Origin: Sulfurimonas sp. MAG313
GTDB lineage: Bacteria > Campylobacterota > Campylobacteria > Campylobacterales > Sulfurimonadaceae
NCBI RefSeq assembly: GCF_029216045.1
Contig: NZ_JAEMVE010000018.1
Span: 1 to 47,854, forward strand
Length of the DNA: 47,854 nt
Reading direction: 5' to 3'
Made by a program: the position numbers and the translations under genes
Shown: positions 26,073-47,854 of the stretch, piece by piece
Numbering within the stretch: position 1 is the first letter of the stretch
How the letters are laid out: the number at the start of each line of letters is the position of its first letter
Notes under the pieces: generated by a model
What the model saw: only the letters and a program-made list of their open reading frames with translations
Told to the model about the DNA's origin: nothing
Database searches by the model: none

Positions 26073-26495
26073 ATGTCGCTTACGAAAGAAACGATTGCTA
26101 TGATTAAACAAAGTAGTGGCCTTATAGAACTAAATGCTAGTAAAATAAGTGAAAACATGTATACACTTTTATTTGATTTATATCCTCAACATATTGAGAT
26201 GTTTGATAATGCTCCTTCTAATCAACATGAATTATTAGCCGAAACTATTTCGCTTTATGCAGTGAATATAGACAATCTTGCCATCTTAAAACCTGTCTTA
26301 GAAAAGATTTCTAGAACGCATGAAAATATGGGTGTACAAGAAAAACATTACGCACATGTTCTTGAAGTGATGCTTTTAGCTTTTAAAAATGTATTAAAAG
26401 ATAAGGCCACTGTGCCATTATTAAAGGCATGGGAAGAAGCGATATTATTTGTTTCTTCTATTCTTATCAAAATGGAAAAAGAGCCTAAGAATTAA
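26073..26495 (+). CDS. Single-domain haemoglobin (flavohaemoglobin-like globin, Cgb type)
   Basis: The 140-aa protein covers one globin fold: IKQSSGLIELNASKISENMY (A/B helices), YPQHIEMFDNA (CD region), and ISRTHENMGVQEKHYAHVLE with the proximal haem ligand His83, then AWEEAILFVSSILIKME (H helix). This is the three-over-three type of bacterial haemoglobin without a reductase domain, as C. jejuni Cgb, which removes nitric oxide. The location beside the nitrate locus fits protection from reactive nitrogen. AGGA lies 7 bases before ATG. The 3' end overlaps the convergent PP2C-kinase gene by 11 bp. Confidence 0.9.
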   Translation: MSLTKETIAMIKQSSGLIELNASKISENMYTLLFDLYPQHIEMFDNAPSNQHELLAETISLYAVNIDNLAILKPVLEKISRTHENMGVQEKHYAHVLEVMLLAFKNVLKDKATVPLLKAWEEAILFVSSILIKMEKEPKN

Positions 26496-28131
26496 AATAG
26501 ATAAAACTTACTACATTAGTAACGAGCAAGATGAAAAAACCTACCTTGTAAAATAAAAGAGGCTCTCGTTCTATAAAAGAGGAATCTTTTCGATAATACG
26601 GCTTTACCTTTTCTGGAGACTTTAATGCATAAAAAAGTTCAGAATAATGGGCATATCGGTCTTCTTCCTTAGTCGCGATACAATGCATAATAATAGACTC
26701 AAACCAATCCGGAATATTTTTATTTAAGCTTGAGGCTAATTTAGCTTGTTTAAACACAGGTGTTTGAAAAGGTTCAATCTCACCATATGGAAATTTCCCA
26801 GTCAAGGCCCAATATAAGGTAACTCCAATAGAAAATATTTCTGTGGTTTCGTTAATAGCTGAACCTAAAAACCTCTCAGGTGCAAGGTAAGAGGGCGTTC
26901 CTGCTCTTGAGTTTACTTCAAAGACTTCAACCACAGAGCCAAAATCAACCATTTTAAAATTAACACCAACCTCACCTTCTTTGTTGTAAACAATAATATT
27001 TTCAGGTTTAATATCTCCATGAACAAGACCTAGATGCAAAAGGTGTGCTTCGGCCTTATGTAAAAACTTTGCAAGAGCAATGGCGGAATCAATGGTTATA
27101 GGACTGTTCTTGAGATATTCAGTAAGGTTAATACCTTCAATAAGTTCCATTAAATAATATCTAGCAGAACGGTCTTCAGGAACCCATGCATCACCAAAGG
27201 CCTTATGTGAAACTTGTTTTGCGTACCAGGCCTCTTTAACAAAGGCTTCTAAGGCAACAGGGTCTTCCTTAGCTATGGCCATTGGAAATTTCATTACAAA
27301 GATTTTATTGTCTTTGGAAACCTTCCAAATACGTCCATGTTCCATCATAGAACTCACTAACTCATATCCATCAAAGGTATCTCCTACCTTAAGCGTTTGA
27401 GGTATGTCTAGGTCAAGGTTTTTAATCGCGTGTATCTCATCAAGTTCTTCAACCCTAAAGATTTGCATGGAAATATCATCTCTTTCATGATCTTTATGCC
27501 CCTTCGCCGCGCTTTGTATAATGAGTTTAGCCCCGAGCCCTTTTACCACTTCTTCTTCTATGTCCTCGTTGGACATTAACGCCGTTAAACCATCACTACA
27601 TAAGACGATGGTGTCACCTTTTTCAATGTTTATGGAACTAATGACAGGCTCAACATGATCAGATAAACCACAGGCTTGAGTAAGTACATGAGAAAGATTA
27701 TCTTCATCCATTATGTGATCTTGTGAAAGTTGGCGCATAGTTTTGTTTTTATCAATTAGATAAATACGTGAGTCACCAAGATTCATCGTATATAAGGTGT
27801 CTCCTTCAATAATAGCCACACAAAGAGTCGTTAAAAGTTCAATTTGTTCATACTGAGTCATAGACTCTTTAAAAAGAAGACGATTTATGTGTTGAGTAAA
27901 GAGGGTAAGACATTGGGTAATATCCCAGTTTTTAGGGCGGGTTTTAAAATGGCTTATAAAAAATTTAACACTTTGCCTCGCGGCAGCTCCACCTTTTCTA
28001 GCAGACCCTACACCATCGCAAAGAACAGCAACAAGAAGCTTATTTTCTAAGACAGCATAGTCACAAGCGTCATCGCCTTTAATACCTTCTGCCTTAGGTA
28101 AAATATATTGAGTAGATTGAAGTTTTAGCAT
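26485..28131 (-). CDS. Bifunctional PP2C-type phosphatase / Ser-Thr protein kinase, membrane-anchored
   Basis: Residues ~8-228 are a PP2C phosphatase: LLVAVLCDGVGSARKGGAAA (metal Asp39), MNLGDSRIYL, VLCSDGLTALM, ERDDISMQIF (metal Asp). Residues ~255-515 are a kinase: lysine in FVMKFPM (281), HGDIKPENIIV (371-381), DFG (396-398), TPSYLAPERF. The glycine loop is degenerate (VSSMMEHGRIWKV), with one of the usual three glycines. A C-terminal membrane helix (VGFFILLVTNVVSFIYF) anchors it. Genes of this architecture lie next to nitrate transporter and assimilatory reductase genes in pseudomonads and other marine proteobacteria (recalled, e.g. PA1782); here it is 20 bp after the transporter. It probably tunes transport or reductase activity; the substrate is unknown. 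Confidence 0.92.
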   Translation of the reverse strand: MLKLQSTQYILPKAEGIKGDDACDYAVLENKLLVAVLCDGVGSARKGGAAARQSVKFFISHFKTRPKNWDITQCLTLFTQHINRLLFKESMTQYEQIELLTTLCVAIIEGDTLYTMNLGDSRIYLIDKNKTMRQLSQDHIMDEDNLSHVLTQACGLSDHVEPVISSINIEKGDTIVLCSDGLTALMSNEDIEEEVVKGLGAKLIIQSAAKGHKDHERDDISMQIFRVEELDEIHAIKNLDLDIPQTLKVGDTFDGYELVSSMMEHGRIWKVSKDNKIFVMKFPMAIAKEDPVALEAFVKEAWYAKQVSHKAFGDAWVPEDRSARYYLMELIEGINLTEYLKNSPITIDSAIALAKFLHKAEAHLLHLGLVHGDIKPENIIVYNKEGEVGVNFKMVDFGSVVEVFEVNSRAGTPSYLAPERFLGSAINETTEIFSIGVTLYWALTGKFPYGEIEPFQTPVFKQAKLASSLNKNIPDWFESIIMHCIATKEEDRYAHYSELFYALKSPEKVKPYYRKDSSFIEREPLLFYKVGFFILLVTNVVSFIYFNS

Positions 28132-28151: not shown

Positions 28152-29432
28152 TTAAATTCTACCACCAGAAGTTGCGCCCCAAGTAGTTCTCCAACGTGTC
28201 TTAACCATAGAAATACCTGCTATCGCAATAAGCGTTACTCCAGCAAATATTAAAAATCCTGCGGAGTAGCCATCAAATGTTGCTTTTGACCAACCAAGGG
28301 TTTTAATAAGCGCAGTTCCACCAAGTCCCCCAGCGGCTCCAATAATACCTACCATTACTCCAATGTCTTTAGCAAAACGCTGAGGTACGAGTTGAAAAAC
28401 GGCTCCATTGGCCATACCTAAGTTTGCCATAGTGATAAAAAACACTAAAATAACAAGAAGAAAAGGAAGGGTAAGGGTTGCATTTAAAACCGTCATAACA
28501 ACGACAATACTAAAAAATATATATAATGATTTAACCCCACCCATTTTATCTGCAATAGCTCCACCAATTGGGCGAAGAATAGTCCCTGCAAAAATACAAA
28601 GTGCTCCAAAGTATCCCGCGATTACCTTGATGTTTTCTTCCGCTAACCAAGATAAGCCAAGTTCAGCCATTTCAGTCGGATACGTGTCCATCAAGTAAAG
28701 TTTTAAAAATACACCAAAGCCAACAAAGCCACCAAACGAGATGGCATAAAAAAGATTAAACCACCAGGTATCTTTGTCTTTAAGAAGTTTCATATAATCT
28801 TTTAATTTTTTAGGATTAACCTTATATACATTTGAAGGAGCATCTTGCGCCATAAAGACATAGGTGAAAAACAAAATCGTAGCTAAACCTGCTTCAAGTA
28901 AAAAAACACTTTGCCATCCATAGAGTTCAGCGATTTTAGGGGCAAAGATAAAGCCCATAACCACACCAAAGTTAGCAGACCCTGCTATACCAAGAACAAG
29001 ACCTTGAAGTTTTGGTGGATACCATTGACCTGCTTGAGGTAAGGCAACCGCGAAAGATGCTCCTGCAAAACCAAGTAGAATAGAAATACCTAAGAGCTGA
29101 TTATAAGTGATGCCTTCTCCTAAAAAGTAGGTGAAAACAAGAGCAAAAATAACAAGAAGTTGAGAAACAAGGGCTGTTTTTTTAGCACCAAACTTATCCA
29201 CACTAAAACCAAGAACAATTCTAAGTAATGCACCTGAAAGTATAGGTAAAGAAAGAAGGGTCGCCTTGTCATTTGAAGACATAATAAAACCATTGGCTGC
29301 AAAAGATTCAACAATTTCTGTAGATAAAGGCCCTAATATAGTCCAAATCATAAAACTCAAATCAAAATAAAAAAAAGCAGCTAGAAGTGTAGGCCAATGA
29401 CCTTCTTCTTTAATCGCTTGTAGTCTTGCCAT
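28152..29432 (-). CDS. narK: Nitrate/nitrite transporter (MFS, NarK/NasA family)
   Basis: This inner-membrane major-facilitator protein of 426 aa has about 12 helices. Family marks are EEGHWPTLLAAFFYFDLSFM and WTILGPLSTEI at the N-terminus, LSGALLRIVLGFSVDKFGAK (substrate-binding Arg in helix 2), GIAGSANFGVVMGFIFAP (nitrate signature 1 region) and GIIGAAGGLGGTAL (signature 2). The start is set at 29432: GGAGA stands 5-6 bases before this ATG, while the earlier in-frame ATG at 29444 has none. The PP2C-kinase gene follows by 20 bp, and the nitrate reductase is divergent, so it most likely imports nitrate for assimilation. Two TATAAT boxes and a palindrome lie upstream. Confidence 0.92.
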   Translation of the reverse strand: MARLQAIKEEGHWPTLLAAFFYFDLSFMIWTILGPLSTEIVESFAANGFIMSSNDKATLLSLPILSGALLRIVLGFSVDKFGAKKTALVSQLLVIFALVFTYFLGEGITYNQLLGISILLGFAGASFAVALPQAGQWYPPKLQGLVLGIAGSANFGVVMGFIFAPKIAELYGWQSVFLLEAGLATILFFTYVFMAQDAPSNVYKVNPKKLKDYMKLLKDKDTWWFNLFYAISFGGFVGFGVFLKLYLMDTYPTEMAELGLSWLAEENIKVIAGYFGALCIFAGTILRPIGGAIADKMGGVKSLYIFFSIVVVMTVLNATLTLPFLLVILVFFITMANLGMANGAVFQLVPQRFAKDIGVMVGIIGAAGGLGGTALIKTLGWSKATFDGYSAGFLIFAGVTLIAIAGISMVKTRWRTTWGATSGGRI

Positions 29433-29813
29433 TAAAATCTCCATATAAAAATAGTTTATATGAGATTATAGACTAATATTTATTATAAGTGTAACTGTGT
29501 TTGATTAAAAAGTAATCAGATAGGTAAAATCATGCTTTCAGTACCTTCTTTAGAGTTGTCTTTTTAAAGGCATCGGCTATTATGATTAAAATATAATCAT
29601 AGTTTCTAAATATTCTCTTTTCTATGACTTGCGTAAAATTGGTATTGTTTTGTGAAATAATTCACTATATATCAACTGTACAAATAAAATATATAAAATA
29701 ATACAATAGTATCGTGTGATATACAAAAAATATGCTTAAAAAATAAGCATGTTGAAATTCATCTTTTATTACCTTTGCGATACAATACTACTTACATAGT
29801 AGAAGGATTAGGT
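29433..29813. promoter_or_regulatory. Divergent control region of the nitrate locus with three matching palindromes
   Basis: This 381-bp gap holds no gene. It carries three inverted repeats of the form TGMTTA-N5-TAAKCA: P1 29502-29518 (spacer AAAAG), P2 29583-29599 (spacer AAATA, arms extended to 8 bp, 29581-29601), and P3 29733-29749 (spacer AAAAA, arms extended to 7 bp). Leftward -10 boxes TATAAT are at 29465-29470 and 29482-29487 (complement). A rightward -10 TACAAT is at 29781-29786. P1's centre (29510) is 40 bp from the first base of the 29470 box, and P3's centre (29741) is 40 bp from 29781. Predicted starts therefore put each dyad near -52. No good -35 hexamers are seen, which suggests activator-dependent promoters. 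Confidence 0.7.
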
Positions 29814-31379
29814 TTGAACGAATCAACACCATTAGAAAATTTTATAAATTATAAGGCTGACACGGGGATGCAGTGTGGGAATTATAGTATCGACCTACCT
29901 GAACTTCAAGACGATGAAAACTATAGATTTCATTTTGATGCAACGGCCTGTGTAGGATGTCGTTGTTGTGAGGTGGCGTGTAATGAACAAAACAATAACC
30001 CTGCGGATATCAAGTGGAGACGTGTAGGTGAGAGTGAAGGGGGAGTTTTTCCTGATGTCACTCAACTTTTTAATTCTATGGCCTGTAATCATTGTATAGA
30101 CCCTGCCTGTCTTATAGGTTGTCCTACCAATTCGTATATTAAAATTGAAGAAACGGGAATTGTTATACATGATGATCCTTCTTGTATAGGTTGTCAATAC
30201 TGTACATGGAACTGCCCTTATGGCGTTCCTACCTTTCATGAAGAACGCTCTATTGTCACAAAATGTCATATGTGTCATGAGCGCCTTGATGTAGGACAAT
30301 CACCTGCTTGTGTTCAAGCCTGTCCTTCAGGTGCTATTGAAATTGAAGTCTTTAAGCCTAAACAGTGGTTAGCAGAAGAGATAGACGAAAAAGGAAATAT
30401 GCCTCATTTAGTGGACGCGAGAGTCACCAACTCAACTACACGTTACACCCTTCCTGAAAATATGCCAGAATTAACCCCAGCAGATGATTATCATCTTAAA
30501 CCTTCTCATTCAGAATTACCTCTAGTTTTTATGACGGTATTAACGCAGGTTTCTTTAGGGGCATTTTTAGCCTTGTTCTTAGGAGATTTACTTTCTTTTA
30601 GTGGTAAGACCTCACCTTCTTGGATAATGGCTCTTCTTGTAATGCTTCCTGCAGCCATTGGTCTTCCTCTTTCTGCCTTGCATCTAGGTCGACCCTTAAA
30701 AGCACTTACGGCGATGATTAATATAAAAACATCTTGGCTAAGTCGAGAAGCCTTAGCTCTTGGTCTATTTACGGGTTTTATGTCTATTAATGTACTTTTA
30801 TACTTCTTAGAAGTGAATGCTTATCTTAGAATCTTTGTAGAAGCTGTAACGCTTGGATTAGGTGCCTTTGGTATATACGCGCAGGGTATGATTTATCAAA
30901 TTGTAGCCAGACCTTCATGGAACCGTGTTACAACGATATTCAAGTTTTTTGGGGTGGGATACATTGGGATGTTTTTAGTAGCTTTTGCTTTGTTAGTGCA
31001 AGGAGAGGTCCAAGCGGCTTCACCTTTATTAACCTTAGCCCTTCTTTTAGCCTTAGCTCAAGCCTTTTTTAGCTACGAAGATAAACGGTCTTTGCATACC
31101 GCGTCTGAGTATGAGTCTGAACTACAAAAGACCTCAAAACTTTATGAGACCTTCTTTATACTTCATCAAAGAGTACGATTAGGAAGCTTTATCTTAGGCT
31201 CACTGATACTGCCAATTTTAGTAACGGTGATTATTGACAGTTCTTTAGCTCCTTTAGTCTTAGGATTTGCTCTAATTTTCATGAGTATATCTGAGTTAAT
31301 GGACAGGTTTTTATTTTACACAACAGTGGTTCCTCTAAATATGGCAGGTGGATTTTTTGTTGGAAAGCAGAGACCCTAA
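29814..31379 (+). CDS. Fe-S electron-transfer protein fused to DmsC-type quinol-oxidising membrane anchor
   Basis: The start is TTG 29814 with GAAGGA 6 bases upstream; an earlier in-frame TTG (29775) lies inside the predicted promoter. Residues ~40-180 are a DmsB/NrfC-like ferredoxin with four cysteine groups (CVGCRCCEVAC, CNHCIDPACLIGC, CIGCQYCTWNC, CHMCHE...CVQAC), enough for four [4Fe-4S] clusters. Residues ~235-515 are a DmsC-like anchor with about eight helices (LPLVFMTVLTQVSLGAFLAL, ALHLGRPLKAL, SWLSREALALG). In dimethyl sulfoxide reductases DmsB and DmsC are separate; here they are one protein. It would pass electrons from menaquinol to the cytoplasmic reductase encoded 44 bp downstream. 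521 aa. Confidence 0.9.
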   Translation: MNESTPLENFINYKADTGMQCGNYSIDLPELQDDENYRFHFDATACVGCRCCEVACNEQNNNPADIKWRRVGESEGGVFPDVTQLFNSMACNHCIDPACLIGCPTNSYIKIEETGIVIHDDPSCIGCQYCTWNCPYGVPTFHEERSIVTKCHMCHERLDVGQSPACVQACPSGAIEIEVFKPKQWLAEEIDEKGNMPHLVDARVTNSTTRYTLPENMPELTPADDYHLKPSHSELPLVFMTVLTQVSLGAFLALFLGDLLSFSGKTSPSWIMALLVMLPAAIGLPLSALHLGRPLKALTAMINIKTSWLSREALALGLFTGFMSINVLLYFLEVNAYLRIFVEAVTLGLGAFGIYAQGMIYQIVARPSWNRVTTIFKFFGVGYIGMFLVAFALLVQGEVQAASPLLTLALLLALAQAFFSYEDKRSLHTASEYESELQKTSKLYETFFILHQRVRLGSFILGSLILPILVTVIIDSSLAPLVLGFALIFMSISELMDRFLFYTTVVPLNMAGGFFVGKQRP

Positions 31380-31423
31380 TGAGATTTGTTGGTAGATGCA
31401 TAATAGGAAATGGTGAATAAATT

Positions 31424-33712
31424 ATGGTAGATAAATTAAAAAACTTTTTAGGTCTAGATATAAAAGAAGAAAAGTATAAACTCTCAGATGATGCTATGTT
31501 TGGTCGCATTTCGGATGCAAAGAAACCAGACAAATGGGTTCTTTCTACCTGTGGTTATTGTGGTGTTGGATGTGGTTTATATATTGGTGTAAAAGATGGA
31601 AAGGCTGTGTATACAAAGGGAAATCCTAAACATGATGTAAACATCGGAACCCTTTGCCCTAAAGGTTTAGCTGAACATCAAATGATTAATGCAGACAACC
31701 GTGTTTTATCTCCTTTGATTAAAGAAAATGGAAAACATGAGAAAAGCACGTGGGAACAGGCCTACCGTAAGGTAAGTAATGAGTTTAAACGTATTAGTAA
31801 AGAACACGGGTCTAAGGCGATTGGCGTACTCTCAACAGGACAACTTTTAACAGAAGAATTTTACGCTCTAGGAAAGTTTGTACAACTGGGTCTTCAAACC
31901 AATAATTATGATGGAAACACCACCCTTTGTATGGCCTCTGCTGTTATGGGATATAAACAGTCCTTAGGCTCAGATGGACCAGTGGGGTGTTATGAAGACT
32001 TTGAAGAAGCGGATGTTATTACTCTTATAGGCGCAAATATCTCAGATAATCATCCTATTTTAAAACTTCATTTAGCAAAAAATAAAAAGAAGCCTCGTAT
32101 TATTGTTATAGACCCTCGTTTTTCTAAAACAGCTCAAATGGCAGATCTATTTGTTCCTATTAAACCTAGAACCGACCTTGCTTTAATTAATGGAATTTGT
32201 CATATTATCTTAGATCAAGGCTGGGAAAACACTCAGTATATTTCTGAAAATACAAATGGCTTTGGGGCCTTAAAAAAACATCTTCAAGATTACCCTCCTC
32301 AAGAAGTCTCAAGTATTACAGGTATAGATGTCAAAGTGCTTTATGATATTGCCCGTTCCATCGCAGGAGCAAAGGCCGCTTTAACGGCTTGGACTATGGG
32401 GGTGAATCAATCGTATATGGGTACAGATACCGTGTCTGCTATTAATAACTTACATCTTATCACCGGTCAAATTGGTCGTCCTGGCGCCGCGCCTTTTTCC
32501 ATTACAGGTCAATGTAATGCAATGGGAACAAGAGAAACAGGCTTTACCTCGTCTCTTCCTGGGTATAGAAATTTTGGAGATGAAAAAGCGGCTAAAGAAT
32601 ATGCAGATATTGCAAGAATTCCTGTGCAATGGGTTCCAACGGAACGTGGTTATAAATATGCAGAGATTATAGACGCGATTGATAGGGGTGAGATTAAGGC
32701 CTTATGGATAGTTGCAACGAACCCACTTGTAAGTTTTGTTAATCAGAAAAAACTACGCTCCGCACTTAAGAAGCTAGATTTACTTGTGGTTCAAGACGCC
32801 TTTTATTCCGATACTGCTGAGATAGCTGATGTGGTGTTTGCAGCAGGTACTTGGGGTGAAAAGGAGGGTGTATATACGAACTCTGAACGTCGATGTAATA
32901 AAGCAAATAAGGCAGTTGAACCAGCAGGTGATTCAAAAAGTGATTTTGATATTATTTTAGAGCTTTCAGGATATTTCCAAAATATCAGAGAAAACCTCTT
33001 TCCTAGGTGGACGAAGCCTGAAGATGCTTTTAATGAATGGAAGAAAGTATCTAAGGGGCAATTATGTGACTATTCAGGTATCACGTATGCTATGTTAGAA
33101 GAAAAAGGTGGGGTGCAGTGGCCTTGTAATGAACAAAACCCTGAAGGAAGTCCTAGACTCTATACCAAAGATATCGCCTTTAGAACAAAGAATGCGAAGG
33201 CAAACTTGCTTTCTTTAGAATGGGTTCCTATGCAAGAATCCTTAAGTAAAGACTTCCCAGTTACTTTAAATACAGGCCGAACAGTAGAGCAATGGCACAC
33301 CCGCACAAAAACAAAAACGATAGAAATATTAAACGACTTAGCTCCAGAAGCCTGGGTAGATATAAACCCTGAAGATGCAAGACGACTTAAGGTAAGTTCA
33401 GGAGATAGACTGTCTTTGTCTTCAAGTAGAGGACGCATTGAAGATGTTATAGTAAGAGTAACTCAAACCGTAGCAGTAGGAAATGTTTTTGTACCCTTTC
33501 ATTTCAACGAACAACTCATAAATACTCTAACAGCGTCTGTGTTTTGTCCAAAATCAGGTGAGCCAAATTACAAACAAACCGCTATTCAACTACATTCACA
33601 AAAGGTTCCAGAAGGTTTAAGCCTAAGTGAAAAAGAAATATCAGGACTTCTAGAACACCAAAAAGTAGAACAAGAATTTTCTTTAAAGAGTTTAAATAAG
33701 GTGGAAGTCTAA
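31424..33712 (+). CDS. nasA: Molybdopterin nitrate reductase, assimilatory type
   Basis: The 762-aa catalytic subunit of the DMSO-reductase family has a bis-MGD cofactor and one [4Fe-4S] cluster: Cys43, Cys46, Cys50 and Cys78 in CGYCGVGCGLYIG...GTLCPKG. Further family sequences: LGLQTNNYDGNTTLCMASAV (Cys in the Mo-ligand region), GANISDNHPI, DPRFSKTA, GQCNAMGTRETG, GRTVEQWHTRTKTK, DARRLKVSSGDRL. It lacks a Tat signal, so it is cytoplasmic, unlike NapA. It lacks the C-terminal [2Fe-2S] domain of some Nas enzymes. Neighbours (transporter, quinol-linked Fe-S/anchor fusion, PP2C-kinase) support nitrate. Formate dehydrogenase is less likely because of gene context. No nitrite reductase is in view. 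Confidence 0.88.
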   Translation: MVDKLKNFLGLDIKEEKYKLSDDAMFGRISDAKKPDKWVLSTCGYCGVGCGLYIGVKDGKAVYTKGNPKHDVNIGTLCPKGLAEHQMINADNRVLSPLIKENGKHEKSTWEQAYRKVSNEFKRISKEHGSKAIGVLSTGQLLTEEFYALGKFVQLGLQTNNYDGNTTLCMASAVMGYKQSLGSDGPVGCYEDFEEADVITLIGANISDNHPILKLHLAKNKKKPRIIVIDPRFSKTAQMADLFVPIKPRTDLALINGICHIILDQGWENTQYISENTNGFGALKKHLQDYPPQEVSSITGIDVKVLYDIARSIAGAKAALTAWTMGVNQSYMGTDTVSAINNLHLITGQIGRPGAAPFSITGQCNAMGTRETGFTSSLPGYRNFGDEKAAKEYADIARIPVQWVPTERGYKYAEIIDAIDRGEIKALWIVATNPLVSFVNQKKLRSALKKLDLLVVQDAFYSDTAEIADVVFAAGTWGEKEGVYTNSERRCNKANKAVEPAGDSKSDFDIILELSGYFQNIRENLFPRWTKPEDAFNEWKKVSKGQLCDYSGITYAMLEEKGGVQWPCNEQNPEGSPRLYTKDIAFRTKNAKANLLSLEWVPMQESLSKDFPVTLNTGRTVEQWHTRTKTKTIEILNDLAPEAWVDINPEDARRLKVSSGDRLSLSSSRGRIEDVIVRVTQTVAVGNVFVPFHFNEQLINTLTASVFCPKSGEPNYKQTAIQLHSQKVPEGLSLSEKEISGLLEHQKVEQEFSLKSLNKVEV

Positions 33713-34847: not shown

Positions 34848-36812
34848 ATGGCATCACTCTTTTCATGGTTTAGCTCAAAACTCAAAAATCAAGAACCAAC
34901 CGCGTCGATTACGGCCTCAATGGAAAAAGACGGATTTGTTTCAAAAGAGCTTTTTTATGAGATTTTAGACTTAGAAACGAATGCTATTTTATTTTTTACA
35001 AAAGATGAAGGTTGGATAGGGGCAAATAAAGCCTTTTTTAACAGATTTGACTTTGATAATATCGCGGACTTTCGAAACAAACACGAAAGTATTCGTGAAC
35101 TCTTTATTGAAGAAAGCGAAGAAGTATTTACCGAATATGACAAGTCCTGGTTGGATTATATCCGTATCCATAAAGAAAATGGTTACCGAGTTGTTCTCAT
35201 TGATAAAGATGAGATGGAAATACCCTGTAGAACGAAGGCTCGAAAGATTCGTCAAGCAGGAAAAGACTTATATGTTTTAGAACTTGAAGATATTTCAGAG
35301 TTAGAAGAAGCACGATATAAAACCGAAGAAGTTGAGCGTTTAAAAAGCAAGTTCTTATCTAATATAGGACATGAATTTAGAACACCTATGAATGGAATCT
35401 TAGGTTTTATAGAGTTGATGGAAAAAAACAATGCAGACCATCAGCAAAGTGAATATCTTCAAATGATTAATATATCAGCGCGTAATCTTATGTCAAACAT
35501 TGAGTCTCTTTTAGACTTGGCTCAAATGCAAGGGGGACGTTTAAAGCTTAATGAGGCTGAATTTAATCCTATCGCCGAAATGGAAGAATTAGCAAAACTA
35601 CACGCTGTTGAAGGACGAAATAAAGGCATACATACATATTTCTACATAGATCCTAAGCTTCCTCAATATATGACAGGCGATCTTAGAAAACTAAAACAAA
35701 TTTTAAATAATCTTATAAATAATGCTTTGAAGTTCACCAAGCGCGGTGGAAAAGTTATGGTAGAAATCAAGCTTGTCCACCGAAATAATGATGGTACGTG
35801 TACTATTGGATTTGGTGTTAAAGATACAGGTAAGGGTATTTTAAAAGAACACTTGGCTCTGATTACTGAGCCTTTTGTAGCGGGAGATCAAGCAGATAAT
35901 CGTTTAGGTGTTGGACTGAGCCTTTCACATGGGCTCATTAAAATGATGGGTGGAGATTTAAGAATTCAGTCAGAAGTTGAAAAAGGGTCCTCCTTTAGCT
36001 TCGCCTTAAGATTTGCATGTTCGGATGCTCAATCTTTTCAAGTGGTCCAAAACTGTACGGCTAAGGTTGTTTTACTCGATGAAAGTAGAGTTGAAGATGC
36101 CAATCAACTGACTATGTACCTACGTTCTTTTTCTATGAATGTCGTCAAAGTTAATCAAATTGATGATAAAATTTATCAAGAAACAGATTTGGTTTATTTA
36201 GTAGCTTCCCAAGATAAGCCAGGATGGAGGCTAAGCCTTTCAAGTTTGCAGAAAAAAGGCAAAACTATCTTAGTGATTAACCCAGGAGAACAGGTTCAAA
36301 CTAAGATGGCTCATGTGATTGACCATACCTTTGTAAAGCCGATGTTGCCTTCAAAAATTGCTAATCACCTTGCTAAAATATTACGTTTACCAAAGTCATC
36401 TCCATCTCTTCAAGAAACACAAGATCATGATGTAGAGCTAAAGGCATTAGTAGTTGAAGATAATCTAATTAATCAACGACTTATTAAAATCTTATTACAA
36501 GAATATAATTTAAAGGTCAGCACAGCAGGAGATGGAGAAGAAGCCGTAAACTTATGTGTTAATAATGAATACAATATCGTATTTATGGATATCGACATGC
36601 CTGTAAAAGATGGAATCTTAGCGACTCAAGAGATTAAGCAACAACGAAATCCAAGTATGCCACATATGCCAATTGTTGCCTTAACGGCCCTAGCTATGGA
36701 AGGCGACAGAGAACATATCTTAGAAGAGGGCTTGGATGATTATTTATCAAAGCCTTTAACACGAGAAAAATTAGAATATGTTTTGCATAAACATTTGCGT
36801 ATAAATGTATAA
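34848..36812 (+). CDS. Hybrid sensor histidine kinase/response regulator (paralogue 1)
   Basis: This 654-aa cytoplasmic protein has no membrane helices. Order: PAS-like sensor (~35-150, TNAILFFTKDEGWIGANKAF), a short coiled helix, HisKA with His175 (GHEFRTPMNGILGF), HATPase_c (NNLINNALKFTKRGG, KDTGKGI, GVGLSLSHGLIKMMGG), a degenerate receiver (~403-510; keeps HTFVKPML but has no phospho-Asp), and a real receiver (~533-650) with Asp581 in FMDIDMPVKDG and Lys in LSKPL. The next gene has the same layout, so they arose by duplication. The final output protein is unknown; signal would pass by phosphorelay. AAGGA lies 7 bases before ATG. Confidence 0.93.
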   Translation: MASLFSWFSSKLKNQEPTASITASMEKDGFVSKELFYEILDLETNAILFFTKDEGWIGANKAFFNRFDFDNIADFRNKHESIRELFIEESEEVFTEYDKSWLDYIRIHKENGYRVVLIDKDEMEIPCRTKARKIRQAGKDLYVLELEDISELEEARYKTEEVERLKSKFLSNIGHEFRTPMNGILGFIELMEKNNADHQQSEYLQMINISARNLMSNIESLLDLAQMQGGRLKLNEAEFNPIAEMEELAKLHAVEGRNKGIHTYFYIDPKLPQYMTGDLRKLKQILNNLINNALKFTKRGGKVMVEIKLVHRNNDGTCTIGFGVKDTGKGILKEHLALITEPFVAGDQADNRLGVGLSLSHGLIKMMGGDLRIQSEVEKGSSFSFALRFACSDAQSFQVVQNCTAKVVLLDESRVEDANQLTMYLRSFSMNVVKVNQIDDKIYQETDLVYLVASQDKPGWRLSLSSLQKKGKTILVINPGEQVQTKMAHVIDHTFVKPMLPSKIANHLAKILRLPKSSPSLQETQDHDVELKALVVEDNLINQRLIKILLQEYNLKVSTAGDGEEAVNLCVNNEYNIVFMDIDMPVKDGILATQEIKQQRNPSMPHMPIVALTALAMEGDREHILEEGLDDYLSKPLTREKLEYVLHKHLRINV

Positions 36813-36842
36813 AGATGTTTAAGATGAATTCAGGGATTGTGT

Positions 36843-38789
36843 ATGCATGAGCTAAAAACACACTTACCTCAAAGTGTGACAAACTTTACTGAAGAGATTT
36901 TGGAACTTGAAAGTGCTATTGTTTTAGTCATAGATCGAAAGGTTGGGGTTGTAGGGGCAAATTCTTCTTTTGCAACCTGTTTGCCTTTTAAGCACTTAAA
37001 AGACTTTTCTAAAAAACATAGAGATATTTCAGAACTATTTATCCCGACACAGGGTACTTTAAGTGCGCATAAACCTTTTGCTTGGCTCTTTGAAGTTTTG
37101 CGCGATGCACGTAAAACGCACAAGGTTAAAATGCTTGGAGAAGATGGAAAAAAACATCTTTTTGAAGTTAAGGTAAAAGAGGTAACAGCAGAGGGTAAAA
37201 ACCTTTTTATTGCTCAGTTTGATGATGTTTCAGCCTTTGAAAAAGCCAAACGTGCTCAAAAATATTTCGAGGAATTTAAACAAAAATTCTTAACCTCTAT
37301 GTCCCATGAATTTAGAACACCTATGAATGGAATTATCGGTTTTGTTGAGCTTTTAGAACGTACAGATACTAACCGTATTCAAAAAGAGTATGTAAACTTA
37401 ATTTCTTATTCCGCCCAAACAATGATGCATAATGTTGAAAACCTTTTAGAGTTGGCTCAAATAGAAAGTGGCCAAATCCATTTGAACGAACAACCTACCA
37501 ACTTAATTTCATTAATGGAAGCTTTTTCTACTGAATTTTATGATGAAGCCATAGCTAAAAACTTGCAACTAATGTTTTTTATTGATCCCTTGCTCCCACA
37601 AGAAGTAATAGCAGATCAAAATAAGATTAAAAAAGTATTAGCAAATCTAGTTAAAAATTCTATCAAATATACCAATGAAAAAGGGCAGGTGTATGTTGAA
37701 ATACGCGCTAATAGTTCAGAAGTAAAAGGGACAATATCGGTAGAATACGCGGTAACAGATACCGGTGTTGGTATTGATCATAACAGACTTTCTACTATTA
37801 TCCGTCCTTTTGCCTCGGCTAAAGATAACCAGTCTCAAGGTAAAGATGGTTTAGGAGTTGGCCTTTCGGTTTGTTACAAATTAACTGAGATGATGCAGTC
37901 TAAGTTAAAGGTTGCAACTGAGGTTGGAAAGGGCTCTCGTTTTAGTTTTTCAGTGATACATAAAACAAAACATGAGCCATCTTTTGAATTTGTTAAAGGG
38001 TCTAGAGTTGCTATTTGGGCGGAAGACCATTACACTATTTTGTATTCGAAACTTTTAAAAGAATATTTAAAACATTTTGCTATTGATGTGGTGGAAATTG
38101 ATGGACTTGTAAATAAAGAGCTGAAAAATTGTGATGCTGTCTTTATAGTGACAGACCACCTTTCTTCTTCTCGAGTCAAGTCTATAAAAGCGCATTATAA
38201 AAACCTTCAAATAGTACCGGTGATAAATACAAGTTTTGAAAGAAAATTTTCTAGTATTAATGCTGAAGTGTCTGATATCTTAGTGAAGCCACTGCTTCCA
38301 AACAAGATTTATGAAACACTTAATGTAATATGGAAAAAGGTACCGGCTGAGTTGTTACGAAAGGTTCAGCTTAAACCTCAAAAACAAAAAAAACCATTGT
38401 TAAATTTAACGGTTTTAGTTGTAGAAGATAACCCAATCAATCTTAAATTAATAGAAACCCTTTTATCCCAATATAAACTAAGGGTGAAAACGGTGGTTAA
38501 TGGTAAAGAGGCCGTAGATGTTTTTGATAGAAAAGAAGAATTTGATTTGGTGTTCATGGATATTGATATGCCAATAATGGATGGAATTACCGCAACACGT
38601 ATGATAAAAGAGATAGAAAAAAGAGACAATAGAGTGCATACACCAATTATTGCCTTAACCGCCCATGGACTCTCAGGTGATAGAGAAAGAATTATAGGTG
38701 CAGGACTTGATGATCACTTTCCAAAACCACTAGACCGTGCAAAATTAGAACAAGTTTTGAACCAATACTTAGATTTAGAGATTAACTAA
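36843..38789 (+). CDS. Hybrid sensor histidine kinase/response regulator (paralogue 2)
   Basis: The start is ATG 36843, with AGGGA 6 bases before it; an in-frame TTG at 36837 directly abuts that site and is unlikely. The 648-aa protein has the same architecture as its neighbour: PAS-like region (AIVLVIDRKVGVVGANSSFA), HisKA (MSHEFRTPMNGIIGFVELLE), HATPase (NLVKNSIKYTNEKGQ, TDTGVGI, GLGVGLSVCYKLTEMM), a degenerate receiver with ...ILVKPLLPNKIYE, and a C-terminal receiver (VVEDNPINLKLIETLLSQYK, FMDIDMPIMDG). The sensor parts are more diverged than the kinase cores. It lies 30 bp after paralogue 1, so the two are probably cotranscribed. Confidence 0.93.
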   Translation: MHELKTHLPQSVTNFTEEILELESAIVLVIDRKVGVVGANSSFATCLPFKHLKDFSKKHRDISELFIPTQGTLSAHKPFAWLFEVLRDARKTHKVKMLGEDGKKHLFEVKVKEVTAEGKNLFIAQFDDVSAFEKAKRAQKYFEEFKQKFLTSMSHEFRTPMNGIIGFVELLERTDTNRIQKEYVNLISYSAQTMMHNVENLLELAQIESGQIHLNEQPTNLISLMEAFSTEFYDEAIAKNLQLMFFIDPLLPQEVIADQNKIKKVLANLVKNSIKYTNEKGQVYVEIRANSSEVKGTISVEYAVTDTGVGIDHNRLSTIIRPFASAKDNQSQGKDGLGVGLSVCYKLTEMMQSKLKVATEVGKGSRFSFSVIHKTKHEPSFEFVKGSRVAIWAEDHYTILYSKLLKEYLKHFAIDVVEIDGLVNKELKNCDAVFIVTDHLSSSRVKSIKAHYKNLQIVPVINTSFERKFSSINAEVSDILVKPLLPNKIYETLNVIWKKVPAELLRKVQLKPQKQKKPLLNLTVLVVEDNPINLKLIETLLSQYKLRVKTVVNGKEAVDVFDRKEEFDLVFMDIDMPIMDGITATRMIKEIEKRDNRVHTPIIALTAHGLSGDRERIIGAGLDDHFPKPLDRAKLEQVLNQYLDLEIN

Positions 38790-46708: not shown

Positions 46709-47854
46709 ATGGCTCAACGAGCGATTCGTGAATACGACGGTAAAGCAATTTTCTCAAGACATTGGGAAAACTATTTCAGTGGTTTCACATACGGTTTCAA
46801 ATCTGTATTAGTTACAAGTGGTAAAGAGTTATTAGAAAAAGCTAACGAACATGGTTTTGAATGGCTAAAACAAGAAGCACTAGTTGCTAAACCAGATATG
46901 CTTTTTGGTAAGCGTGGTAAAAATGATTTAGTACTTTTTAAAACTACTAAGCCAGGTGATGTTACTTTAAAAGAAGCTGCAGCGTGGATTGATGAGAAGA
47001 TGTCTAAGACTACTACACTTCTTTCTGGTCAGCACGGTACACTTTCTCACTTTATTATTGAGCCATTTACTCCACATACACAAGAGCAAGAGTATTATAT
47101 TTCTGCTACTACAGTTGGTGAAGACGATGTTCTTTATATGTCAGCTGAAGGTGGTATGGAAGTTGAAGAAGGTTGGGACGAAAAAGTAAACGAAGTTACT
47201 ATTCCTATCAACATGAACGACGCAGATATGGAACACGCTGTTAAAGCTAACATTCCTAAAGATATTCAAGAAAAAGACAAGAATGCATTTACATCTTTCG
47301 CCATTCAATTCTTTAAATTCTACAGAGATTTAAACTTTGCTTACCTAGAGATCAATCCTATCGTTATGTTAGATAACAACGATATGGCTATTTTAGATAT
47401 GGTTGCTCGTTTAGATGATACGGCTGGTTTTATGATGGTTGACGAATGGGCTGATAACGCAACTTTTCCAACAGCATTTGGAATGGAAGATCAATCTCCA
47501 GAAGAAAAAGCGGTAGCAGTTGCTGACTCTAAGTCAGGTGCTTCTCTTAAACTTACAATCTTAAACCCAATGGGTCACATTTGGACTATGGTTGCTGGTG
47601 GTGGAGCTTCTGTTGTATACGCAGATACTATTGCTGACTTAACTGGTGATGTTAAACAACTTGCTAACTACGGTGAGTATTCAGGTGGACCAACTACGGG
47701 CGAAACTGAATTCTACGCAGATACACTAATTGATCTTATGACGCGTCATAAAGATCCTGAAGGTCGTGATAAAATCATGATTATTGGTGGAGCAATTGCT
47801 AACTTTACAGATGTTGCAAAAACATTTACAGGTATCATCCAATCATTCGAAAAG
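46709..47854 (+). CDS. aclB: ATP-citrate lyase beta subunit, partial at 3' end
   Basis: The first 382 codons are open to the window end. AclB with AclA cleaves citrate to acetyl-CoA and oxaloacetate, the key step of the reductive TCA cycle. The sequence begins MAQRAIREYDGKAIFSRHWE and contains the ATP-grasp fold (FAYLEINPIVMLDNNDMAIL, metal-binding Asn/Asp) and a CoA-ligase-like part (LNPMGHIWTMVAGGGASVVY, GEYSGGPTTGETEFYADTLI). The full protein is about 440 residues in relatives, so ~60 are missing. Codon choice is strongly biased (AAC, TTC, TAC, GGT), pointing to high expression. Strong Shine-Dalgarno AAGGAG. aclA is expected beyond the edge. Confidence 0.95.
   Translation, partial: MAQRAIREYDGKAIFSRHWENYFSGFTYGFKSVLVTSGKELLEKANEHGFEWLKQEALVAKPDMLFGKRGKNDLVLFKTTKPGDVTLKEAAAWIDEKMSKTTTLLSGQHGTLSHFIIEPFTPHTQEQEYYISATTVGEDDVLYMSAEGGMEVEEGWDEKVNEVTIPINMNDADMEHAVKANIPKDIQEKDKNAFTSFAIQFFKFYRDLNFAYLEINPIVMLDNNDMAILDMVARLDDTAGFMMVDEWADNATFPTAFGMEDQSPEEKAVAVADSKSGASLKLTILNPMGHIWTMVAGGGASVVYADTIADLTGDVKQLANYGEYSGGPTTGETEFYADTLIDLMTRHKDPEGRDKIMIIGGAIANFTDVAKTFTGIIQSFEK

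Follow-up and report, generated by a model that had tools for sequence, protein, structure and literature searches.

Positions 29,814 to 33,712 of a 47,854-nucleotide stretch of Campylobacterota DNA (Sulfurimonas sp. MAG313, contig NZ_JAEMVE010000018.1; the whole stretch is referred to below as the window) carry two neighboring genes which, we propose, encode a two-protein menaquinol:nitrate oxidoreductase for nitrogen assimilation, assembled from a flipped fusion of DmsB- and DmsC-like modules and a catalytic subunit belonging to a separate Nas lineage. We put the probability of this reading, which rests on sequence comparison and predicted structure, at about three in four. Textbook assimilatory nitrate reductases are soluble and depend on NAD(P)H or on ferredoxin/flavodoxin. 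The modules of the proposed enzyme are known; we could not find a description of their combination, and no quinol- or DmsC-linked assimilatory nitrate reductase was found in the open-access literature, which is weak evidence of novelty. One part of PMC5401914 lists NarB, NasA, and NirA for Campylobacterota, with no anchor mentioned in that part. According to a 2020 survey (PMC7331816), canonical four-cluster or membrane-anchor subunits accompany none of the enzymes in the clade comprising NasA/NasC, AioA, NapA, and Fdh; the pair would be an exception to that statement, widespread in one phylum (about 12% of the sampled Campylobacterota genomes).

Anatomy of the anchor and the reductase

The anchor and reductase genes lie on the same strand, 44 nt apart. 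The anchor frame is open from 29775 and ends at 31379; its likely start is TTG 29814, as initially annotated, and the sequence AGAAGGA six bases upstream agrees with that choice. In a Pfam scan, a single chain contains Fer4_11 (residues 97-190) and DmsC (PF04976, residues 246-515, E 5e-22), and four CxxCxxCxxxC-type sets N-terminal to the DmsC domain together provide 16 cluster cysteines; the AlphaFold2 (AF2) model has eight long transmembrane (TM) helices, where the predicted local distance difference test score (pLDDT) is mostly at least 90. The domains, cysteines, and helices bear out the initial annotation of a four-cluster ferredoxin fused to an eight-helix anchor. Foldseek matches the TM fold best to ActC and to menaquinone-bound PsrC (E ~0.002-0.006, probability 1.00). 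His303 and Glu325, the equivalents of DmsC His65 and Glu87, are invariant in 88/88 anchor homologs, which supports the quinol-linked electron supply initially suggested; mutations of His65 in E. coli DmsC stop quinol oxidation, according to work cited in a part of PMC8076601. Menaquinone genes of the futalosine pathway are present in the source genome. All three modules of a complex iron-sulfur molybdoenzyme (CISM) thus occur together (Mo subunit, 4x[4Fe-4S] subunit, and quinone anchor), with B and C fused.

The Fe-S domain is fused N-terminally and has no export signal, so a cytoplasmic reductase requires an anchor flipped with respect to DmsC. This inversion goes beyond the initial annotation, and the charge pattern supports it: under the positive-inside rule, on which the orientation call wholly rests, lysine plus arginine (K+R) residues in the loops average 18.3 (range 13-22) on the Fe-S side, against 1.2 (0-5) on the opposite side, with the same bias in 88/88 homologs and the reverse bias in 7/7 DmsC/YnfH controls from periplasmic enzymes. 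The Fe-S head would accordingly be predicted to face the cytoplasm; there is one proposed precedent for an inverted NrfD-like anchor, SoeC (PMC8076601).

The reductase has only the Pfam domains Molybdop_Fe4S4, Molybdopterin, and Molydop_binding. Fer2_BFD was not found in it by a Pfam scan that detects this domain in canonical Rhizobium NasA, and inspection of the N-terminus (MVDKLKNFLGLDIKEEKYKLSDD...) revealed neither a twin-arginine motif nor a TM segment; an RR motif is visible in the N-termini of the E. coli and Campylobacterota NapA proteins with which it was compared. The enzyme therefore lacks the twin-arginine translocation (Tat) signal and the [2Fe-2S] tail, as first noted from the sequence, and the missing Tat signal, together with the anchor charge pattern, supports the cytoplasmic location then assumed. 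An N-terminal [4Fe-4S] motif is followed by TLCMASAV, in which Cys169 is the predicted Mo ligand; this Cys-Met active-site motif is as in Nas, unlike the Cys/Sec-His of formate dehydrogenases. In our tree the lineage is a 100/100 clade nested among nitrate reductases, in a clade (98/98) that leaves formate dehydrogenases outside; its sister is uncertain, haloarchaeal NasA (90/86) standing on a long branch. An N-terminal extension of about 40 amino acids (aa), which the classical NasA rows in the tree set lack, has near-invariant positions in 65 homologs (K6, F8, G10, D12, I13, D23, F26, and G27) and is a possible docking segment.

The nearest known systems share some features with the pair and differ in others: i) the reductase resembles NasA, NasC, and NarB in being predicted cytoplasmic, in its Mo-bis(pyranopterin guanine dinucleotide) (Mo-bisPGD) cofactor, single N-terminal [4Fe-4S] cluster, and Cys-Met motif, and in its nirA/narK neighborhood, but it forms its own extended clade, and its partner is a four-cluster/DmsC protein where theirs is an NAD(P)H diaphorase, ferredoxin, or flavodoxin; ii) E. 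coli dimethyl sulfoxide (DMSO) reductase, DmsABC, likewise has a four-cluster subunit and an eight-TM anchor with a His65/Glu87 menaquinol site, but its B and C subunits are separate, its charge pattern is the reverse of that seen here, and its catalytic subunit is DmsA-type rather than a Nas-lineage protein without a Tat signal; iii) SoeABC, a sulfite:quinone oxidoreductase, is a CISM complex that is proposed to have an inverted anchor and to face the N-side (PMC8076601), but has separate B and C subunits and apparently another catalytic lineage, and works in the opposite direction (sulfite oxidation, quinone reduction); the catalytic partner here places in the Nas lineage, in a tree that contained no SoeA reference; and iv) NarGHI and NapABC/GH also couple quinol to nitrate reduction, but NarI has b hemes and NarG an Asp ligand in place of a DmsC anchor and Cys-Met motif, and Nap, a periplasmic enzyme, has a Tat signal and either c hemes or NapGH.

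Distribution and genomic context

Both genes were sought in 397 evenly sampled Campylobacterota genomes (anchor E <=1e-60, reductase E <=1e-200). Each is found in 49, and 48 genomes have both, 1 the anchor only, 1 nasA only, and 347 neither (Fisher p ~1e-59, a value that ignores shared ancestry); chance pairing is excluded. Carriers are spread over 21/69 genera, with patchy presence inside families. In both discordant genomes the gene lies at a contig end, and the nasA-only genome has a 184-aa anchor fragment running off its contig. Genome G208 (L122:967-4596, -) has nirA and the anchor together near a contig end with no detectable nasA, reflecting either assembly loss or real loss of the catalytic subunit.

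The search for the fused anchor beside nasA-like genes found most pairs abutting: apart from the window's own, 34 of the 42 same-contig pairs are on the same strand and less than 300 nt apart, and in a second collection (the best 80 of 334 relatives in a contig scan, with record titles naming Campylobacterota or unplaced) nasA is immediately downstream of the anchor in 48 of the 71 loci with enough flank. No other reductase partner was seen beside the anchor in a dozen loci where nasA is non-adjacent; at one locus (L014) NapA lies some kilobases away. Because nasA is mostly next to the anchor and no other partner was seen, the anchor is not a protein found mainly beside other reductases, the finding that would have spoken against the initial annotation.

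A second, short nitrate reductase of about 660 aa, which groups with classical NasA (100/99), occurs in 41/397 genomes (examples are L124:6077-8062 (+), L007:4313-6313, and L070:4879-6870). The two types occur together in 8 genomes, sometimes in one cluster; the other 33 have the classical type without the present reductase, and the anchor is in 0/33 of these. It thus goes specifically with the present lineage, not with nitrate assimilation in general.

Plasmids yielded no fused homolog, only separate DmsB/DmsC pairs. One E. coli plasmid encodes an Fe-S protein that shares 47% identity with the Fe-S domain of the anchor; it was rejected as a relative of the system, since it belongs to a remnant operon with a periplasm-type anchor. 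That remnant (L166:4250-6313, on an IncHI1A plasmid) derives from an uncharacterized operon of the DMSO reductase family, adjoins IS26 next to uspG-rnk-rna, and contains a C-terminal catalytic fragment, an Fe-S subunit, and a DmsC-type anchor.

The neighborhood supports the assimilatory context initially suggested. A strong nirA match is present in 45/49 carriers, often in the same operon, and in 33/49 it lies no more than 6 kb from the anchor. In the second collection nirA is somewhere in 43 of the 80 loci, and among the 55 with enough flank narK is upstream in 43 and the PP2C-kinase gene present in 35. In two loci (L125 and L126) narK, kinase, anchor, nasA, and nirA follow one another without interruption, and amtB and glnK-like genes lie alongside; a third locus (L127) carries nirB and, probably, nirD near the cluster. 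The classical-type enzyme also goes with nirA (30/41). The source genome encodes a periplasmic NapA above the curated cut-off, so that nitrate respiration would be served by a separate enzyme. Its NirA (L082:454-2376, -) is 640 aa long, some 110 aa beyond the NirA-family match; this surplus is common to many relatives and missing from shorter NirA versions of about 530 aa.

Proposed electron path and alternatives

The anatomy of the sequences, their conserved residues and charge topology, and the co-occurrence and context of the genes are what was observed; from these we infer quinol oxidation, complex formation, nitrate as the substrate, and the direction of flow, and propose that i) the anchor would span the inner membrane and hold its Fe-S head on the cytoplasmic side; ii) menaquinol would be oxidized at the His303/Glu325 site, close to the cytoplasmic face; iii) the four [4Fe-4S] clusters would relay electrons to the soluble NasA-type subunit, with its N-terminal [4Fe-4S] cluster and Mo-bisPGD; iv) imported nitrate would there be reduced to nitrite; and v) NirA, supplied by ferredoxin, would carry the reduction on from nitrite to ammonium. 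Should both half-reactions lie on the cytoplasmic side, the nitrate step would be electroneutral and conserve no energy. NrfD-like subunits are generally proposed to carry ion pathways, less clearly so for DmsC and SoeC (PMC8076601), and a flipped anchor that uses the ~0.5 V span between menaquinol and nitrate to drive proton translocation, giving an energy-conserving biosynthetic reductase, seems to us improbable.

Several points weigh against the proposed assimilatory oxidoreductase. The source is a metagenome-assembled genome (MAG; 2.5 Mb, estimated completeness 95.4, contamination 5.9%), and both its MAG status and its contamination call for caution; AF2 predicts the Fe-S domain poorly (pLDDT mostly <60); the reductase scores far under the curated NCBIfam cut-offs (499 of 1100 bits for NasC, 480 of 1000 for NasA), which canonical Rhizobium NasA also fails; in the remaining 8/42 same-contig pairs, at least 300 nt apart, inserted genes separate the two by up to 49 kb; in about one third of loci anchor and nasA are not immediate neighbors, and a few genomes have them far apart; and a side role in dissimilatory metabolism is conceivable.

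In one rival reading, the pair is a cytoplasmic quinol:nitrate reductase that serves energy metabolism or redox balance, and nitrite is exported or detoxified. NarK-type transporters are capable of nitrate/nitrite exchange, and quinol-linked molybdoenzymes of such architecture are normally respiratory (PMC8076601); but the near-constant presence of nirA in carriers, often in the same operon, the amtB/glnK genes adjoining the L125 and L126 clusters, the NapA already in the source genome, and the lack of any energy gain if the step is electroneutral make such respiratory use unlikely. We are also disinclined to believe, if only slightly more so, that a soluble ferredoxin feeds the reductase as in NarB while the anchor is merely co-regulated, for instance as a membrane tether or for ferredoxin-quinone electron transfer: NarB and NasC likewise lack the [2Fe-2S] tail, and the separated pairs would fit, but the one-to-one co-occurrence, the anchor never accompanying a classical-type reductase alone, and the invariant quinol-site residues all speak against it. 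That the pair runs in reverse as a quinone-reducing dehydrogenase, oxidizing formate or, like SoeABC, sulfite, is hardly credible, for although SoeC is a cited inverted NrfD-like anchor and the top NCBIfam score of the reductase is Fdh-alpha (below its cut-off), canonical NasA likewise scores best with Fdh-alpha, the Cys-Met motif and tree position are with nitrate reductases and outside formate dehydrogenases, and the neighborhood is nirA and narK.

What would an assimilatory menaquinol:nitrate oxidoreductase save? NAD(P)H, ferredoxin, and reverse electron transport would be spared for two of the eight electrons. The initial annotation had suggested a saving of reduced ferredoxin for the reductive tricarboxylic acid (TCA) cycle; this stands for two of the eight electrons at most. 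NirA, the only gene of the nitrite/sulfite reductase family in the source genome, best matches ferredoxin-nitrite reductase models (below cut-offs), and six of the eight would thus still need ferredoxin. Because sulfur and H2 oxidizers feed electrons in at the quinone level, the avoidance of reverse electron transport may be the more general benefit. If the proposal is true, chemolithoautotrophs of vents and sulfidic zones would pay part of their nitrogen cost directly from the quinone pool, using a DmsC module upside down, with consequences for metabolic models of such primary producers and for annotation pipelines that name the subunits formate dehydrogenase or DMSO reductase. As to the TCA cycle itself, the citrate-binding domain of an ATP-citrate lyase (47492-47851, +) runs off the end of the window, a predicted gene that lends support to a reductive cycle.

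Coordinates and other genes of the window

Table 1. Features of the anchor-reductase locus (window positions)
Feature	Position	Strand	Basis
Putative ribosome-binding site of anchor gene, AGAAGGA	29801..29807	+	6 nt before TTG 29814, from sequence
Anchor, 521 aa, four-[4Fe-4S] and DmsC domains in one chain, proposed menaquinol dehydrogenase facing the cytoplasm	29814..31379	+	Pfam Fer4_11 and DmsC; 54-sequence alignment A1; AF2 model
Fe-S domain, 16 cluster Cys in four sets	29922..30344	+	Profile scans, sequence; Cys near-invariant in 88 homologs
DmsC membrane domain, eight TM helices, positive Fe-S side	30510..31319	+	PF04976 246-515; K+R counts; fold match to ActC, PsrC
His303 codon, equivalent of E. 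coli DmsC His65 (putative menaquinol site)	30681..30683	+	Alignment with 7 DmsC/YnfH proteins; invariant 88/88
Glu325 codon, equivalent of E. coli DmsC Glu87	30747..30749	+	Invariant 88/88
Nas-lineage nitrate reductase catalytic subunit, predicted cytoplasmic, 762 aa	31424..33712	+	Pfam, NCBIfam, tree
Lineage-specific N-terminal extension, ~40 aa before first cluster Cys	31424..31549	+	Near-invariant positions, 65 homologs
Cys169 codon, predicted Mo ligand, motif TLCMASAV	31928..31930	+	Sequence, alignment, tree rows
NarK-family nitrate/nitrite transporter, divergent neighbor	28152..29444	-	TIGR00886 224 bits, below cut-off 311.7
PP2C phosphatase/Ser-Thr kinase fusion, probable regulator	26485..28131	-	Pfam; conserved alongside narK

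Scans of the window for promoters and terminators gave nothing above chance worth using. The PP2C/kinase fusion, to judge from its conserved position, may regulate nitrate uptake or reduction. A single-domain globin gene (26073-26495, +) overlaps with the kinase gene's end and matches the globin domain of flavohemoproteins; its product may handle nitric oxide arising from nitrate reduction. Downstream of the reductase, two tandem hybrid sensor histidine kinases of 654 and 650 aa (34848-38789, +) share the same architecture and are apparently a duplication.

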